Positions 27,739-48,869 of a stretch of DNA of 64,000 nt are shown here, piece by piece (position 1 is the stretch's first letter; every line of letters starts with the position of its first letter). The DNA lies in assembly GCF_009827055.1 (NCBI RefSeq), contig NZ_WUMK01000004.1, forward strand, positions 186,001-250,000, given 5' to 3'. A program made the translations under genes and the position numbers. This DNA is from Shinella kummerowiae. GTDB lineage: Bacteria; Pseudomonadota; Alphaproteobacteria; Rhizobiales; Rhizobiaceae. The notes beneath the pieces are model-generated. The model saw only the letters and a program-made list of their open reading frames with translations. It was not told the DNA's origin and made no database searches.

Positions 27739-27788
27739 TGGTGAGCGCGCAGGGATTCGAACCCTGGACCTACTGATTAAAAGTCAGT
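27739..27788 (-). tRNA. 3' fragment of tRNA-Lys(UUU), attL of the prophage
   Basis: On the minus strand it reads anticodon arm (ACTGACTTTTAATCAGT, anticodon TTT), variable loop, T arm (GGTTCGAATCC) and acceptor 3' half ending GCGCGCTCACCA. The D arm and 5' acceptor half are absent; sequence upstream is phage. This is the displaced end left when a phage recombines into a tRNA 3' half. The intact gene should be at the right prophage boundary. Confidence 0.88.
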
Positions 27789-27934
27789 TGGCACACTTTT
27801 CCATACGTTTCCGTCGGTGTCAATAACCCTTTATTTTTCAGAGATTTCAGCCTATATGTTCGTCCTACGTTTCGCTACGTTTCATCGTGTTTCATCCGAC
27901 GGTGGCGACTCGGTGGCGACTGGAGGGGATTTGA

Positions 27935-29218
27935 TTGCCTACGATCAAGCTGACACGCAAAACTATAGCTTCACTGGAGCCAGGCGAGAAACCAGTCATC
28001 TACTTTGATGAGACCGTCAAAGGTTTCGGCTTGAAGATCATGCCGACAGGCGCGCGCTCGTGGGTCCTGGAGTATCGCCCCGGCGCAGGTGGGCGCGGCG
28101 TAGCCAAAAAGCGTCTGAAGATTGGAACGCCAGCGACGATGCCCCCCGAAGAGGCTAGGGAACGGGCCATTCGGACATTGGCGCGGGTCACGCTTGGCGG
28201 GGATCCTGCCGGAGCCAGATCCGACGAGCGTTCTTCACCTACCGTATCAGATTTAGTTGACGCGTATATGCGCGATCACGTTGCTTCCAAGCGAAAGGCT
28301 AAAACGGAGGCAGAATACAAGATCGTGATCGACAAGCACGTAAAGCCGGCCATCGGCAGCATGCGTGCGTCTGTGGTCATGGCGGCTGACGTCGCTCGCA
28401 TGCAGTCCTCGATTGTCCGAGGCAAACGCCGTAATGGCAACACTGGAAAAACCACCGCGAACCGCGCGCTTGCTGTGCTCTCGGCCGCTTTCAACTGGGC
28501 ACAAGGGGTCGGCTTGGTGCCTGACGGGCACAATCCGACAAAGCGAGTCGAGCGCTTCAGCGAGAGTCGAAAGGAGCGGTTCTTGACCACCTCGGAGATG
28601 ACCGCTCTTGGAGAGGCCCTGTATGAGGCCGAGACCATCGGCTTGCCATATGACGTTGATGAGAACAGGGCGAAAGCCAAGAATGCTCCGAAGCCCGAAA
28701 ACCGCAGAACTGTATACGGCCCGCATGCGGTTGCTGCGATCCGACTATTGCTTCTAACCGGAGCTCGAAAGCGTGAAATCTTAGACTTACGGTGGCAAGA
28801 CGTAGACCTTGACCGAGGCGTCCTGTTTCTTGCTGACTCAAAAACAGGAAAGAAAACGCTCGTGCTCTCGTCTGCGGCCATTGCCATCCTGCAAAACTTG
28901 CCGCGGTTAGGCATCTATGTGATCGCTGGCGCCACTGCCGGCGCGAAAGGCGAGAGGCCGCGGGCAGACTTGAACAAGCCTTGGGGCGCTGTACTGAGGC
29001 GGGCTGGCCTTGAAGGCGTCCGACTACATGACCTTCGGCATTCTTTCGCGAGCGTTGGCGTGGGGGGCAGCCTCGGGCTTCCGATTGTCGGTAAGCTGTT
29101 GGGACATACGCAAGCAGCCACAACCGCGCGGTATGCTCATCTTGATACCGACCCACTGAAGAAAGCAGTCGATACGATCGGCGATAAGATCAGCTCTGCA
29201 ATGGGAGCGCGACGGTGA
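27935..29218 (+). CDS. int: Tyrosine-type site-specific integrase
   Basis: Catalyses prophage integration and excision. 427 residues from TTG 27935. The N-terminal DUF4102-like arm-binding domain (about 1-90) contains FDETVKGFGLKIMPTGARSW. SAM-like core binding follows at about 100-190. The catalytic domain has R in TGARKREIL (~275), HDLRHSF (~364) and the nucleophile region LLGHTQAATTARYAHL (Tyr ~400). Located 150 bases inside attL as expected. Confidence 0.95.
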   Translation: MPTIKLTRKTIASLEPGEKPVIYFDETVKGFGLKIMPTGARSWVLEYRPGAGGRGVAKKRLKIGTPATMPPEEARERAIRTLARVTLGGDPAGARSDERSSPTVSDLVDAYMRDHVASKRKAKTEAEYKIVIDKHVKPAIGSMRASVVMAADVARMQSSIVRGKRRNGNTGKTTANRALAVLSAAFNWAQGVGLVPDGHNPTKRVERFSESRKERFLTTSEMTALGEALYEAETIGLPYDVDENRAKAKNAPKPENRRTVYGPHAVAAIRLLLLTGARKREILDLRWQDVDLDRGVLFLADSKTGKKTLVLSSAAIAILQNLPRLGIYVIAGATAGAKGERPRADLNKPWGAVLRRAGLEGVRLHDLRHSFASVGVGGSLGLPIVGKLLGHTQAATTARYAHLDTDPLKKAVDTIGDKISSAMGARR

Positions 29219-35807: not shown

Positions 35808-35884
35808 CAGTGTGTAGCGCAGCCTGGTAGCGCACGTGACTTGGGCTCACGGGGTCGCAGGTTCGAGCTCTGCCACACTGACCA
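35808..35884 (+). tRNA. tRNA-Pro(UGG), prophage-encoded
   Basis: A complete 77-base cloverleaf. Acceptor CAGTGTG/CACACTG pairs fully. D arm is GCGC-AGCCTGGTA-GCGC, anticodon stem CGTGA/TCACG with loop CTTGGGC (anticodon TGG, 35842-35844). The five-base variable loop is GGGTC. T arm is GCAGG-TTCGAGC-TCTGC, followed by an encoded ACCA end. It lies between a leftward gene and the packaging genes. Confidence 0.93.
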
Positions 35885-44493: not shown

Positions 44494-44553
44494 GCCGGGC
44501 ATTCCTCAAAATCACACTGAAGAACGTCCGGCGCGCCCGGCGAAGGAGAAATT

Positions 44554-44988
44554 ATGGCAGGTGAACAACTCGGCCGGCTACTTCTGATCAAGCTCGGCGA
44601 TGGAGCCAGCCCCGGCCCGGAAGTCTTTACCAATCTCTGCGGCCTCAAGGATCGCAGTTTCGACCTTTCGGCAAACTCGGTCGACACGACCAAGCCTAGC
44701 TGCACCAACCCTGGCGGCCCGGTTCAGAAGACCAGCCGTCCCGGCATTGTGAGCCGCACCTTCTCCGGCTCCGGCACGTTCGTGTCGAGTGCTGCCATGA
44801 AGGCGTTCATGGTTCATGTGAACGACGCGACGGTCTTTAACGCGCAGGTGGTCGTGCCCGGTCTCGGCACCTACGAAGGCTCGTTCTTCGCAGCAAACTT
44901 CACCCTCGACGGCAGCATGGAAGACGATCTCCAGTTCAGTGGTTCGTTTGAGGCTGCTGATGCTCTGACGTTTACGGCCGAGGTCTAA
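44554..44988 (+). CDS. Major tail tube protein (TP901-1 like)
   Basis: 144 residues; GAAGGAGA ribosome site. Pattern CGLKDRSFDLSANSVDTT and FSGSGTFVSSAAMKAFM is typical of phage/GTA tail tube proteins. Expected to be one of the most abundant virion proteins. Confidence 0.88.
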   Translation: MAGEQLGRLLLIKLGDGASPGPEVFTNLCGLKDRSFDLSANSVDTTKPSCTNPGGPVQKTSRPGIVSRTFSGSGTFVSSAAMKAFMVHVNDATVFNAQVVVPGLGTYEGSFFAANFTLDGSMEDDLQFSGSFEAADALTFTAEV

Positions 44989-44991
44989 TCC

Positions 44992-45375
44992 ATGGCTGAA
45001 GAGGAGAAAAAGCCGGTGGCAACAGAGAAAAAACCCTTCCCGCTGCAGGTCAATGGCGCGCGCGGGGAGGTTGCCCTGTGGATCGGCGACGTTCCGCTGG
45101 TGATTGCTGCGACGATGGGCGGTCTTTCCGCGGTGTCGACGCGGTTGGAGTGTAAGTCTTTTCAGGATCTGTTTGTCCGACTGTCTGGCGTCGAGGCTGC
45201 TGCTACGCTGGCCGGCATCGAACTACTGACCGTCAAGGGCGATCGTCTGGCAGCCATCGACAGCTTGAGGCTGAAGCACTTCCCGGCATGCGCAGCGGCG
45301 TTCTCCGCGGCGCTGGCGCATCACTTTGATGATGGTGACGAGGGAAACGTGGAAGCCGTCGAAAAGGCGGCATAA
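44992..45375 (+). CDS. Tail assembly chaperone, G-like (0-frame product)
   Basis: 127 residues, GTA-type tail assembly chaperone (TAC_11-like): the RGEVALWIGDVPLVIAATMG segment is characteristic. In lambda-type phages this protein is also made as a -1 frameshift fusion. Here GGGAAAC lies in the correct phase 27 bases before the stop, followed by a hairpin. See the frameshift and extension entries. Confidence 0.85.
   Translation: MAEEEKKPVATEKKPFPLQVNGARGEVALWIGDVPLVIAATMGGLSAVSTRLECKSFQDLFVRLSGVEAAATLAGIELLTVKGDRLAAIDSLRLKHFPACAAAFSAALAHHFDDGDEGNVEAVEKAA
45342..45371 (+). promoter_or_regulatory. Programmed -1 ribosomal frameshift signal
   Basis: Slippery heptamer G GGA AAC (45342-45348) has GGA and AAC as 0-frame codons, the X-XXY-YYZ form; lambda G/GT uses GGGAAAG. 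A six-base spacer is followed by a six-pair hairpin GCCGTC-GAAAA-GGCGGC (one T-G wobble, 45355-45371). The -1 frame is open from here to 45587 and has no usable start before its conserved part. Confidence 0.8.
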
Positions 45376-45587
45376 AACGAAAAGAAGACCCGTTCCCGTG
45401 GCGTGACTGGATGCGAATTGGCTTCGGCGGGCTGCAATGGCGGCCTGCCGACTTCTGGGAAGCGACGCTCACGGAGTTCTTTCAGGCCATCCACGGCCGG
45501 AACGAGGCTAATGGCGCCGAAGAAAAACCGAAGGCGCCGACCAAGGGCGAGATGGCGGAGTTGTTGGCATGGGCGGATGGAAAATGA
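45348..45587 (+). CDS. Tail assembly chaperone T-like extension (-1 frame)
   Basis: 79 codons read only after the -1 shift, giving a ~198-residue fusion with the G-like protein. The segment DPFPWRDWMRIGFGGLQWRP matches the GTA/phage tail chaperone family (rcc01693/TIGR02216-like). That match begins before the first ATG of this frame (45411 region), and no ATG, GTG or TTG precedes it, so frameshifting is needed to make it whole. Confidence 0.75.
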   Translation, partial: RGSRRKGGIKRKEDPFPWRDWMRIGFGGLQWRPADFWEATLTEFFQAIHGRNEANGAEEKPKAPTKGEMAELLAWADGK

Positions 45588-45775
45588 CGAAAGACACTGG
45601 TGAATTCAGCGAAGAGATTCCGACTGCGAAGCTAGATCGCTTAGACGCTGAAATGCAGTCTTTGCGGCAAGAGCTCGCAGATTTCCAAAAGGCATACTTC
45701 TGGCATCAGGAGGCAACCGTACGCGGATACTCAGGTTATCACCGACCAGATCAGAGTCATCTTTTCCGAAATTGA
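45584..45775 (+). CDS. Small coiled-coil protein, probably frameshifted
   Basis: ATG 45584 overlaps the chaperone stop (ATGA). 63 residues: a helical N-terminus (KLDRLDAEMQSLRQELADFQ) is followed by poor sequence after about residue 45. The +1 frame continues with protein-like sequence (for example DQIRVIFSEIDIDFGDQVLA) to a TAG at 45897. The original gene may have spanned 45584-45899 and lost its frame near 45710-45730, or uses another frameshift. Function unknown. Confidence 0.5.
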   Translation: MTKDTGEFSEEIPTAKLDRLDAEMQSLRQELADFQKAYFWHQEATVRGYSGYHRPDQSHLFRN

Positions 45776-45868
45776 TATCGACTTTGGCGATCAAGTCCTC
45801 GCCCGCTTCCAGGAAGCAGTCAACTTGATATCTCACGTTTTGGACGTTGCTCATAACCGCTCCATAAA

Positions 45869-45897
45869 AGCCCGCCTCGCGCGGGCTTCTCTATTTT
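45869..45897 (+). terminator. Terminator-like hairpin before the tape measure gene
   Basis: AGCCCGC-CTCGC-GCGGGCT followed by TCTCTATTTT, 15 bases before the tape measure start. Probably attenuating, since late transcription must continue. Confidence 0.6.
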
Positions 45898-45911
45898 AGG
45901 ATGAACCCGCC

Positions 45912-48869
45912 TTGGCTGACAACTCCACCGACGACATGATTATCGCCATTGGCGTTGACGTGGCGACGATCCGGCGCGGGCTGAAGAAGCTGGAGCAGGA
46001 AGTCGCTTCGTCCACCGGCAAGGTCCAGAAGCAATTCGAGACCGTCGGACGTGGCATTGACAACGCCATGACGAGCGCGATGCAGAACCGCATCAATGCC
46101 ATGGTGGGTATTGGCACCAAGGGCGCCAAGGAATGGACTGGGGCGCTTGCTGACCAGGGCAAGGAACTTGAGCGGCTTCGCGCCAAGTACAGCCCGCTCT
46201 TTGCGACGATCAACAATTACAAGTCGGCTGTTGCCGATATCAAGCGCGCTCACGCCGTTGGGGCTATTTCTGCTGACGAGATGACGGCAGCAATCCAGCG
46301 AGAACGGCAAGCGGCTCTTGCGAGCACTGCTGCTATCAAAGGGCGGAACGCCGCTCTTGTTCAGGGCGGTAGGGCAGGCCAAGGGTTCCAGACAGCCAAT
46401 ATTGCCGCACAGTTTCAGGACATTGCCGTAACCTCGGCGATGGGCATGAACCCGCTGCAAATTGCTCTTCAGCAGGGCACGCAGTTGTCTTCGGTGCTCG
46501 GCACCATGGGCAATGGCAAGCAAGTTATTGCTGGCCTTGGCGCGGCTTTTGCCTCGCTCGTCAGCCCTGTATCGCTTGTAACGATCGGTCTCGTGGCCGG
46601 CGGCGCAGCGGCTATTCAGTATTTCTCTACGATGGAATGGGGCGGCGCCAAATCAGAGGAAACTCTGAAGAAGGAAGCCGAACTCGTCGCCGCTGTTGCC
46701 AGCAAGTGGGGCGAGGCACTGCCAGCCCTGAAGGCTTACAACGACGAGCGTCAGCGGATCGCTGGCGACCAAGAGCTTCAAGAGGCTTTAAACATCGGCA
46801 AGAGCGCTCAGTGGGATGACCTCCGCAAGGCGCTTGGTGATGTCGATATTACTATTGCCGATATCGTATCTCGCATTGCTCAGATGGGCGAGGATACTGG
46901 CGCGATTTCGTCGCTTCAGTCCACATTCAATGAGCTAACTAAGGGTATCGACGACGGTACGGCATCAACTGCACTGGCGCAGCGCGCTCAAAAGGAACTG
47001 GCCGACGTTGTCAAGAACAACGCGACGCCAGAGCTTGAGGCGCTGCTCAAGATATTCCAGGAACTGATACCCGCGATCGATGGCGCGTCTCGCGCAGCGC
47101 AGCGCTTTGATCTGGATGATGCTATTGCGCGGACCTCCCGCTATCCGAGCCGCGGCACCTATGGTGGTGTGGCACGCAACGCTGACGGCACGCCGCAGGG
47201 CGAGGGCACATCGCTTCCTTTCAGTGGCCCGACGCCAGAGAGTCGTCCGCTTATCGAATTGGACGGCTTGCCTGGCGCAGACAAGGCAGGAAAGAAGGCC
47301 GAAACTGCCGCGCAAAAGGCGGCAAACGCCTACCGTGACCTGATCAAGTCAGCCGACGACCGTATCGGCCAGTTGCGTCTTGAGACCGAGCTAACCGGCC
47401 AGTACGGCGTTGCGACGGACGCCGCGCGCTTCCGATTGGAGCTTTTGCAACAGTCCGAGGACAAAGGACGGTCGCTCAGCCCGACACAACGTGCGGAAAT
47501 CGAGCAAAAGGTTGCTCTCTACGAGAAATACTCGCAGGCGCTGGCGGAAACCAAGCTCCAGCAGGACTTGCTGAACACGGCGCGGTTTTCATCGCTGTCC
47601 AAGCAGGACCAGCAGGTTGTCTCGACGCTTCGGCAGTATGGCCTTCCGGAGGACTTGGGTGGCAAGAACGCGCAGGCCATCCGGCAATCGTTGCAGAGCG
47701 AAGAGATCAACTCGGCGATCGACGACTTTTCGTCGAGCCTCGCCAACAGCATTGTCTCGAGCGGTGGTGACACCGGCGAGGCTTTCGGTAAGACCTTCCT
47801 GGCCGCCTTGCAGGAGTCGGCGCAGAAGCAGCTGACAAACCTGTTTTCTCAGATGCTCAAGGGTTTATTCAACTCGACTTCCCTAGGTGGCGGTGGTGCT
47901 GCGCCGTTTGCCGCCAATACAACCATTGGCGCTTTGTTGGGCGCTGGTGCCGCTCCTGTAGGCGCTGTGTCTCGATCGGCGTTACCGGCTCTGCCTACGG
48001 GCGATATCGCCTCCTACATCACGCAGGCGGCGATCAAGCGCGGGATCGATCCGGCAATTGCCCTCAAGGTTGCCAAATCCGAGGGCGGCCTGGATAGTTG
48101 GAATCTCCAGTCGAGCTTCGTCAAGAACGGCGTGCGTGAACCATCATACGGGCCGTATCAGCTTTACATGGGCGGCGGCTTGGGGAATGCCTTCCAGAAG
48201 CAGACGGGTCTAGATCCGCGTCTTGCGGCGAACGGGCCCGCTGGCGTTGATTTCGCACTAGACAACGCCAAGAAGAGCGGTTGGGGTGCCTGGTACGGCG
48301 CCGCGAAAGTGGGCGTCGGCAACTGGGACGGAATCGGGAAGGGCGCAAACACGGCGACCGCTGCGCTCGAGAAGATGGCGGCGGCATCGACTGAAACGAC
48401 CAAGGGGCTTGGTGGGCTCGCCAATAGTCTGGCATCCGGTCTCGGTGGCGCTGGCGGCGGGTTCGACTGGGGTTCGCTGTTCTCGTCGTCCTTCAAGCCG
48501 AACACAACGCTCTCGAATTTCCTCAACGGCGTTCCTGGATTTGCGACTGGTACGAACTCTGCGCCGAAGGGCATTGCTCTGGTCGGCGAGAAAGGGCCTG
48601 AACTCGTCCGCTTTCGTGGCGGCGAGCAAGTCATCCCAAACAACCAGATCAACGCCCCCCGAGCTCCACGCCTAGCCGCTGCCAATTCGAACCGCATGGT
48701 CCGCAATGAAACGTCGCTGACGGTCCAGATTCAGGGCGCCAGCGGCGACGACCATGTCCGCATGCTCGTGAATCAGGGCGTGCAGACGGCGCTTCGTGAC
48801 CAGAACGAGCACATGCGTCGGCAGGGCTTCGGCAACATACAGCAAGCGTACACCACTGACAGGGGGTAG
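45912..48869 (+). CDS. Tail tape measure protein with embedded lytic-transglycosylase-like domain
   Basis: 985 residues from TTG 45912 (AGGA 10 bases upstream). The N-terminal half is helical with a hydrophobic stretch around GLGAAFASLVSPVSLVTIGL. At about residues 700-800 a muramidase-like domain starts ITQAAIKRGIDPAIALKVAK and includes SEGG and YGPYQLYMGGG. The C-terminus has the usual ALVGEKGPELVRFRGGEQVI. It sets tail length and probably opens peptidoglycan during DNA entry. Confidence 0.92.
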   Translation: MADNSTDDMIIAIGVDVATIRRGLKKLEQEVASSTGKVQKQFETVGRGIDNAMTSAMQNRINAMVGIGTKGAKEWTGALADQGKELERLRAKYSPLFATINNYKSAVADIKRAHAVGAISADEMTAAIQRERQAALASTAAIKGRNAALVQGGRAGQGFQTANIAAQFQDIAVTSAMGMNPLQIALQQGTQLSSVLGTMGNGKQVIAGLGAAFASLVSPVSLVTIGLVAGGAAAIQYFSTMEWGGAKSEETLKKEAELVAAVASKWGEALPALKAYNDERQRIAGDQELQEALNIGKSAQWDDLRKALGDVDITIADIVSRIAQMGEDTGAISSLQSTFNELTKGIDDGTASTALAQRAQKELADVVKNNATPELEALLKIFQELIPAIDGASRAAQRFDLDDAIARTSRYPSRGTYGGVARNADGTPQGEGTSLPFSGPTPESRPLIELDGLPGADKAGKKAETAAQKAANAYRDLIKSADDRIGQLRLETELTGQYGVATDAARFRLELLQQSEDKGRSLSPTQRAEIEQKVALYEKYSQALAETKLQQDLLNTARFSSLSKQDQQVVSTLRQYGLPEDLGGKNAQAIRQSLQSEEINSAIDDFSSSLANSIVSSGGDTGEAFGKTFLAALQESAQKQLTNLFSQMLKGLFNSTSLGGGGAAPFAANTTIGALLGAGAAPVGAVSRSALPALPTGDIASYITQAAIKRGIDPAIALKVAKSEGGLDSWNLQSSFVKNGVREPSYGPYQLYMGGGLGNAFQKQTGLDPRLAANGPAGVDFALDNAKKSGWGAWYGAAKVGVGNWDGIGKGANTATAALEKMAAASTETTKGLGGLANSLASGLGGAGGGFDWGSLFSSSFKPNTTLSNFLNGVPGFATGTNSAPKGIALVGEKGPELVRFRGGEQVIPNNQINAPRAPRLAAANSNRMVRNETSLTVQIQGASGDDHVRMLVNQGVQTALRDQNEHMRRQGFGNIQQAYTTDRG

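Follow-up and report, generated by a model that had tools for sequence, protein, structure and literature searches.

A predicted programmed -1 frameshift in the tail assembly chaperone genes of a rhizobial prophage family

The window analysed here is a 64,000-nucleotide stretch of the Shinella kummerowiae genome (contig NZ_WUMK01000004.1, positions 186,001 to 250,000). Pfam searches place genes for terminase, portal, prohead protease, capsid, connector, head completion, HK97-gp10-like and tail completion proteins upstream of the tail genes, and these morphogenesis genes, together with an integrase, therefore identify the region as a prophage with what we call an HK97-type morphogenesis cluster. 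As in loci of the lambda G/GT type, a pair of overlapping reading frames lies between the genes for the tail tube and the tape measure protein (Table 1). The gap between the second frame (ORF2) and the tape measure gene contains an 82-codon ORF on the minus strand (45606-45854), with no similarity to the minus-strand gene found at the same place in the Rhizobium phage genome MN988490. A tRNA-Pro gene (TGG, 35808-35884, plus strand), about 0.8 kb 5' of the terminase gene, apparently lies within the prophage, and the host has a second tRNA-Pro TGG (L308). Beside the integrase gene, a weak tRNA-family match (27742-27812, minus strand, 34.7 bits, not called by ARAGORN) is possibly an attachment-site remnant.

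Table 1. Features of the tail assembly chaperone locus (window coordinates)
Feature	Position	Strand	Basis
Integrase	27935-29218		Pfam
Major tail (tube) protein, upstream	44554..44988	+	PF06199 E 5e-18
ORF1, tail assembly chaperone 'G-like', 127 aa, zero frame	44992..45375	+	phrog_13724, GTA-gp10 profile
Final -1 frame stop 5' of the heptamer, TGA	45336..45338	+	
Slippery heptamer G_GGA_AAC	45342..45348	+	in phase with ORF1
ORF2, -1 frame 'T-like' extension, Phage_TAC_6 domain	45342..45587	+	PF09550 match, substitution pattern
Spacer GTGGAA, 6 nt	45349..45354	+	direct reading
Putative stimulatory hairpin GCCGTC-GAAAA-GGCGGC	45355..45371	+	folding z, pairing across relatives
First ATG/GTG/TTG of the -1 frame (ATG), within the conserved DPFPWRDWM block	45411..45413	+	
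Tape measure protein, downstream	45912..48869	+	PF06791 E 3.6e-11; phrog_19914 E 5e-141

The product of ORF1 matches phrog_13724 (E 9e-29), an entry listed as function unknown, and gave no Pfam match at E 1, hence remaining below the cut-off of PF11836 (Phage_TAC_11 / GTA-gp10). Two of its relatives score 21.4 (L009) and 14.9 bits (L007) against that family, whose cut-off is 27.8 bits, and the alignment of the ORF1 profile with that of GTA-gp10 reached an hhalign probability of 93 (E 3.3e-7) over 59 columns; judged by profile similarity, ORF1 and GTA-gp10 are distantly related. ORF2, in the -1 frame, contains a Phage_TAC_6 domain (PF09550, E 1.3e-9, 38.8 bits, curated cut-off 23.4). We take both phrog_13724 and PF09550 to be families other than lambda's own. 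The structure predicted for ORF1 has a mean pLDDT of 85, low at the ends only, and is folded to about residue 113, while residues 114-127 are predicted to be disordered (pLDDT <50); in this model the slip site, at codons 118-119, sits just beyond the folded part. ORF2 is predicted to form a small helical domain (pLDDT 74). Sequence-profile searches of solved structures returned no credible match for either frame (best E 0.46 for ORF1 and 0.15 for ORF2).

Close inspection of the 3' end of ORF1 (...GAG GGA AAC GTG GAA GCC GTC GAA AAG GCG GCA TAA) shows the heptamer in exact X_XXY_YYZ phase, with GGA (45343-45345) and AAC (45346-45348) as zero-frame codons and the TAA stop at 45373-45375. The preliminary description of the locus, made from the letters alone, had reported this phase, the six-base spacer and the six-pair hairpin, and direct reading finds all three as described. 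Unlike the lambda G/GT heptamer, which is GGGAAAG, the window's ends in C, and the window has a downstream hairpin. The bare 7-mer is not rare in the window (7 copies seen against 8.0 expected); what stands above chance is its phase, its place and its conservation. A scan of 44500-46000 against Rfam matched nothing at the slip site; the single match listed lies at 44710-44788 on the minus strand (E 0.17), below the gathering score.

An alignment of homologous loci for the phase of the heptamer had been proposed as a check, and we carried it out on relatives chosen by ORF1 similarity, independently of the signal. ORF1 was found in 8 of 201 genomes (the own genome, counted among the 8, and relatives); a phage collection contributed two Rhizobium phages, and of the 110 relatives confirmed in a scan of IMG/VR contigs the best 80 were kept. 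After removal of two copies of the window, 93 loci including the window remained; two of them (L081 and L083) were re-read from their true start, the first entry having lain too far upstream, and one broken locus (L065) was dropped. In all 92 intact loci, the window and 91 others, a heptamer stands in phase and ORF2 lies in -1 relative to ORF1. The site is GGGAAAC in 88 loci and AAAAAAG in 4 (L008, L009, L011 and L012, the last three from one genome). These loci correspond to 65 distinct 72-nt segments, and the 27 representatives retained at <80% ungapped protein identity comprise 25 with GGGAAAC and 2 with AAAAAAG. The heptamer is in phase even in the most distant relatives, whose ORF1 is 24-31% identical to the window's; two of the three such representatives carry AAAAAAG (24 and 29% identity). 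The switch to AAAAAAG, also a classical heptamer, in distant relatives speaks for function. As a codon background, 78 distinct ORF1s use GGA elsewhere for 61 of 707 glycines and AAC for 75 of 148 asparagines, and 34% of their codons end in G.

The same comparison bears on two other explanations of the overlap. A single original frame could have been split by a recent indel or a sequencing error, and the locus that was dropped is indeed truly broken, apparently by an insertion sequence; the identical -1 relation in the other 92 loci rules this out for the family. In the broken locus (about 2340-2723), ORF1 is cut near the expected heptamer and followed by an apparent insertion-sequence transposase ORF, which by eye is presumably IS3-type. 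Alternatively, RNA polymerase rather than the ribosome might slip on the A run, as the runs of six or seven A in the four AAAAAAG relatives would allow. The window and the 87 other GGGAAAC loci, however, have a run of just three A preceded by three G, and all 92 loci share one codon phase, which makes transcriptional slippage extremely improbable.

In line with two overlapping coding frames, substitutions follow the -1 frame as soon as ORF1 ends. For 57 loci that share the spacing, 353 pairs were compared (equal ORF2 length, 2-25% different; the pairs are not independent), and changes at -1 codon positions 1, 2 and 3 number 817, 644 and 4521 after the ORF1 stop. Between the heptamer and the stop the counts are 213, 19 and 195, the minimum falling where neither frame has its wobble base. 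Column entropies agree, less sharply: among 52 distinct loci, zero-frame positions 1, 2 and 3 have 0.71, 0.64 and 1.28 upstream of the heptamer, and 0.50, 0.72 and 0.67 in the overlap. These patterns fit coding in both frames, and the hairpin, itself coding, would also constrain the overlap.

How ORF2 might be reached without slipping is the question on which the main rival explanation depends. According to the preliminary description, the -1 frame opens only after the TGA just left of the heptamer and encodes DPFPWRDWM before its first possible start; the frame does open there and runs to a TGA at 45585-45587, and its earliest ATG, GTG or TTG is the codon for the M of that block. This ATG (45411) is not a plausible start for ORF2. 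Throughout the family the ORF1 stop is overlapped in the -1 frame by GTA, ATA, CTA, TTA or CTG, and by ATG, GTG or TTG in none of the 92 loci. In 86 of 92 the -1 frame has no such start codon between its opening and the conserved PFPW block: 40 of these have none until the end of the block and 46 have the first one inside it, including seven with an ATG at residue two of the block (EMPFRQW). The six exceptions have a start codon upstream of the heptamer (four loci) or between heptamer and block (two), and in one locus (L078) the open -1 frame holds no ATG, GTG or TTG anywhere. Had homologs lacked a slippery site and carried a proper ORF2 start before the PFPW motif, they would have spoken for separate genes; the heptamer is missing in none of the 92.

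Two separate proteins, with ORF2 started on its own after the ORF1 stop by coupling or reinitiation (for example at ATA 45372, which overlaps the TAA, or at ATG 45411), would be in keeping with a purine-rich stretch seen by eye before the ATA, with the start codons before or at the second residue of the block in the loci just described, and with the ATGA, GTGA or TTGA overlaps of many relatives that resemble loci of gene transfer agents (GTAs). The database record of one of the two Rhizobium phages also has two genes. Yet the codon overlapping the stop is never a common start, ATG 45411 belongs to the conserved block and many relatives lack it, the overlap before the stop varies like two coding frames, and independent initiation leaves the fixed heptamer unexplained. 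We therefore regard separate initiation of ORF2 as very unlikely, if the least improbable of the three alternatives. The two phages, RHph_Y3_1 and RHph_Y3_56_1 (MN988490 and MN988502), have an ORF1 67.5% identical to the window's and share its heptamer and hairpin, in phase. MN988490 is annotated with ORF2 as a separate gene beginning at the ATG of the motif block, and MN988502 with no ORF2 gene at all; the frameshift is absent from both annotations, so that the earlier suspicion of a missed fusion product holds for both.

The hairpin is less constant than the heptamer. Its arms (GCCGTC, 45355-45360; GGCGGC, 45366-45371) enclose a GAAAA loop and form six pairs, one of them G.U. The segment 45342-45390 has a folding energy of -12.7 kcal/mol (z -2.87), which 2 of 200 dinucleotide shuffles reach, and on 42 nt the window's hairpin has a z of -4.04. 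Among the 27 representatives, 18 have z < -1 and 9 have z > -1, and the 6-nt spacing is common to most segments compared. Pairing was assessed in 42 of 47 distinct GGGAAAC segments, the other five (L007, L010, L078, L086 and L088) having no alignable hairpin; the six pairs are formed in 92.9% of cells, a share that drops to 30-60% once the partner is shifted by 1-3 columns, and the paired cells exceed nearly all shuffles. The covariation score (0.202, against 0.152 in shuffles) was reached by none of 500 shuffles and depends on one pair that exchanges C-G, U-A and U-G, whereas the count of pairs with both sides altered (1) was matched by 370 of 500 shuffles and that of extra pair types (4) by all 500, so that the alignment suggests only modest covariation. 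In two loci (L072 and L087) the stem is kept with a longer loop, and L008 and L009 have unrelated stems 3' of AAAAAAG. The expectation that the hairpin, like the heptamer, would be conserved thus holds in part: it is common in the family but weak or missing in some members, a frequent helper and no constant feature. Nor do all chaperone frameshifts of the lambda G/GT type need a downstream structure.

From the signal, its phase and conservation, the substitution patterns of the two frames, the lack of a usable ORF2 start and the position of the genes, we infer, with a probability of roughly 95%, that the locus undergoes programmed -1 frameshifting of the lambda G/GT type and yields chaperones of 127 and 198 amino acids. 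Most ribosomes would complete ORF1 and release the shorter form, while a minority would slip back by one base on G_GGA_AAC, the tRNA-Gly moving from GGA to GGG and the tRNA-Asn from AAC to AAA, probably aided by the hairpin 6 nt downstream. Shifted ribosomes would then read the -1 frame to 45584, giving a fusion (198 aa by arithmetic) that continues from ...DEGN into RGSRRKGG...DPFPWRDWM.... By analogy with lambda, the short form may serve as a coat for the tape measure protein, and the fusion may recruit tail tube subunits through its T-like TAC_6 extension.

Both the strategy and the site are already known in phages; what is newly recognised is the rhizobial prophage family. As predicted here, lambda G/GT has a -1 shift at G_GGA_AAN near the end of the first ORF, with a short and an extended product. 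In the accessible part of one survey (PMC5009743), G_GGA_AAG is described as highly prone to shifting in E. coli, G_GGA_AAC is counted among the most shift-prone heptamers for mammalian ribosomes, and G_GGA_AAC is given for the haloarchaeal virus HCTV-1. Two further papers name GGGAAAC, one as the site of the chaperone frameshift in Caulobacter phage Colossus (PMC3556154) and the other, as a prediction, in Burkholderia phage KL1 (PMC3483164); these phages belong to other phage lineages and are likened to the window by the site alone. The consulted part of the PRFect paper suggests incomplete annotation as the reason why many SEA-PHAGES genomes lack a joined chaperone gene (PMC10885494).

The choice of AAC as the second codon may be related to the tRNAs of the host. 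The 48 tRNA matches of the genome include tRNA-Lys CTT and TTT, tRNA-Asn GTT and the tRNA-Gly set TCC, GCC and CCC. The slipperiness of AAG in E. coli is tied, in the accessible part of PMC5009743, to the single lysine tRNA of that organism, and the presence of tRNA-Lys CTT in the host is a possible reason why AAC stands in place of AAG. GGGAAAG does occur in some GTA-like loci.

PF09550 is also found elsewhere in the own genome (G000:C38:403334-403504, minus strand, locus L110), after a GTA-gp10 (PF11836) gene. In each of four such GTA-like loci in which ORF1 was searched against Pfam (PF11836, E 6e-31 to 7e-28), the PF09550 domain follows the GTA-gp10 gene in -1. The genes g10 and g10.5 of RcGTA are called tail chaperones 1 and 2, and treated as two genes, in the accessible part of PMC11409702, whereas the window holds one predicted frameshifted pair; the signals of the GTA-like loci, too, differ from the window's. 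We compiled a first set of 119 PF09550 loci (L095-L214; 30, then 29 new and 60 further ones, mostly top-listed matches), which were not individually confirmed as GTAs and may include prophages. The domain lies in -1 of the upstream ORF in 103 of them and in +1 in 8; the remaining 8 have no such ORF by our rule. Over the final 90 nt of ORF1, with the PFPW-block codons excluded, X_XXY_YYZ (X different from Y) occurs 53 times in phase, compared with 7 and 5 times in the two remaining phases (the in-phase ones being 18 GGGAAA, 17 AAACCC, 13 CCCTTT, 3 CCCGGG and two others), while further upstream in ORF1 there was no phase preference (13, 7 and 15).

The preliminary description had held that GTA-type relatives are usually annotated as two separate genes. 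That suits the 32 of 103 loci with a start and no heptamer, but not the 39 with an in-phase heptamer and no start. A further 10 loci have both and 9 neither, the start in heptamer-free loci usually lying at the stop, and 13 more have CCCTTT solely inside the PFPW codons and no start. Heptamer and start tend to exclude each other (Fisher p 5e-8, uncorrected for kinship). A start at a TGA stop is weak evidence by itself because TGA always gives NTG in the -1 frame.

A second set comprised 80 named GTA loci (L215-L294, the best 80 of at least 543), partly overlapping with the first (L258/L139, L260/L192 and L294/L133 are alike at the junction). Shinella species supply the best named matches to the own genome's GTA. 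The domain lies in -1 in 75 of the 80 and in +1 in 3, and the motif was not found in 2. In-phase heptamers are again in large excess (45, including 33 AAACCC, compared with 2 and 0 in the other two phases), but heptamer and start do not divide the loci between them, a start being absent in 16 of 40 with a heptamer and in 10 of 35 without. Nineteen of the 24 heptamer loci that have a start carry a TTG overlapping the TGA stop, often from CCT TGA, and start-stop coupling may operate alongside the heptamer there. Both sets together contain 51 in-phase AAACCC[T/C] in 183 ORF1s, in which 8% of codons end in A and CCT makes up 25% of proline codons elsewhere. The own genome's GTA has AAACCCT and GTGA; it and three further Shinella loci keep the heptamer, with GTG, ATG, CTG and CTG as the codon at the stop, and a fourth such locus (L218) has neither heptamer nor start at the place read. 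By eye, loci lacking AAACCCT (L236, L246, L252, L256, L263, L264 and others) often keep CCC[T/C] in the same phase. In several GTA loci CCC[T/C] follows other bases at or just before the stop (GGACCCT, TTCCCCT, TCCCCT), and the working unit may be C_CCT, with a one-tRNA proline slip as its core, rather than the full heptamer.

Taken as a pattern of sequence, these junctions make it reasonably likely that RcGTA-type GTAs of the Hyphomicrobiales produce their second chaperone by -1 frameshifting, several lineages at A_AAC_CC[T/C], C_CCT_TTN and perhaps C_CCG_GGG (slippery sites outside the classical list), and that other lineages have replaced the frameshift by a start that overlaps the stop. 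Our literature search found no report of frameshifting in the GTA chaperone pair, subscription papers being mostly beyond its reach: the accessible parts of PMC8601537, PMC10299305, PMC8718954, PMC11409702, PMC9765227 and PMC10783043 hold none, and frameshift wording is absent from PMC7296036 and PMC6821227. Related events do appear in the portions available, namely the usual chaperone frameshift in Rhodobacter phages (PMC8601537) and a +1 shift proposed in the hydrolase gene of a Wolbachia particle (PMC10299305).

For the prophages, the window corrects the annotation of a rhizobial family, in which one gene is predicted to give two products, and adds a well-sampled example of G_GGA_AAC from a host among the Alphaproteobacteria that has two different lysine tRNAs. 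If the reading of the GTA loci is true, a recoding signal of phage tail assembly would have been kept, re-invented or lost in domesticated GTAs; GTA biology would gain a missing fusion protein and unconventional slippery sites, and recoding would have been exchanged for start-stop coupling within one gene family.
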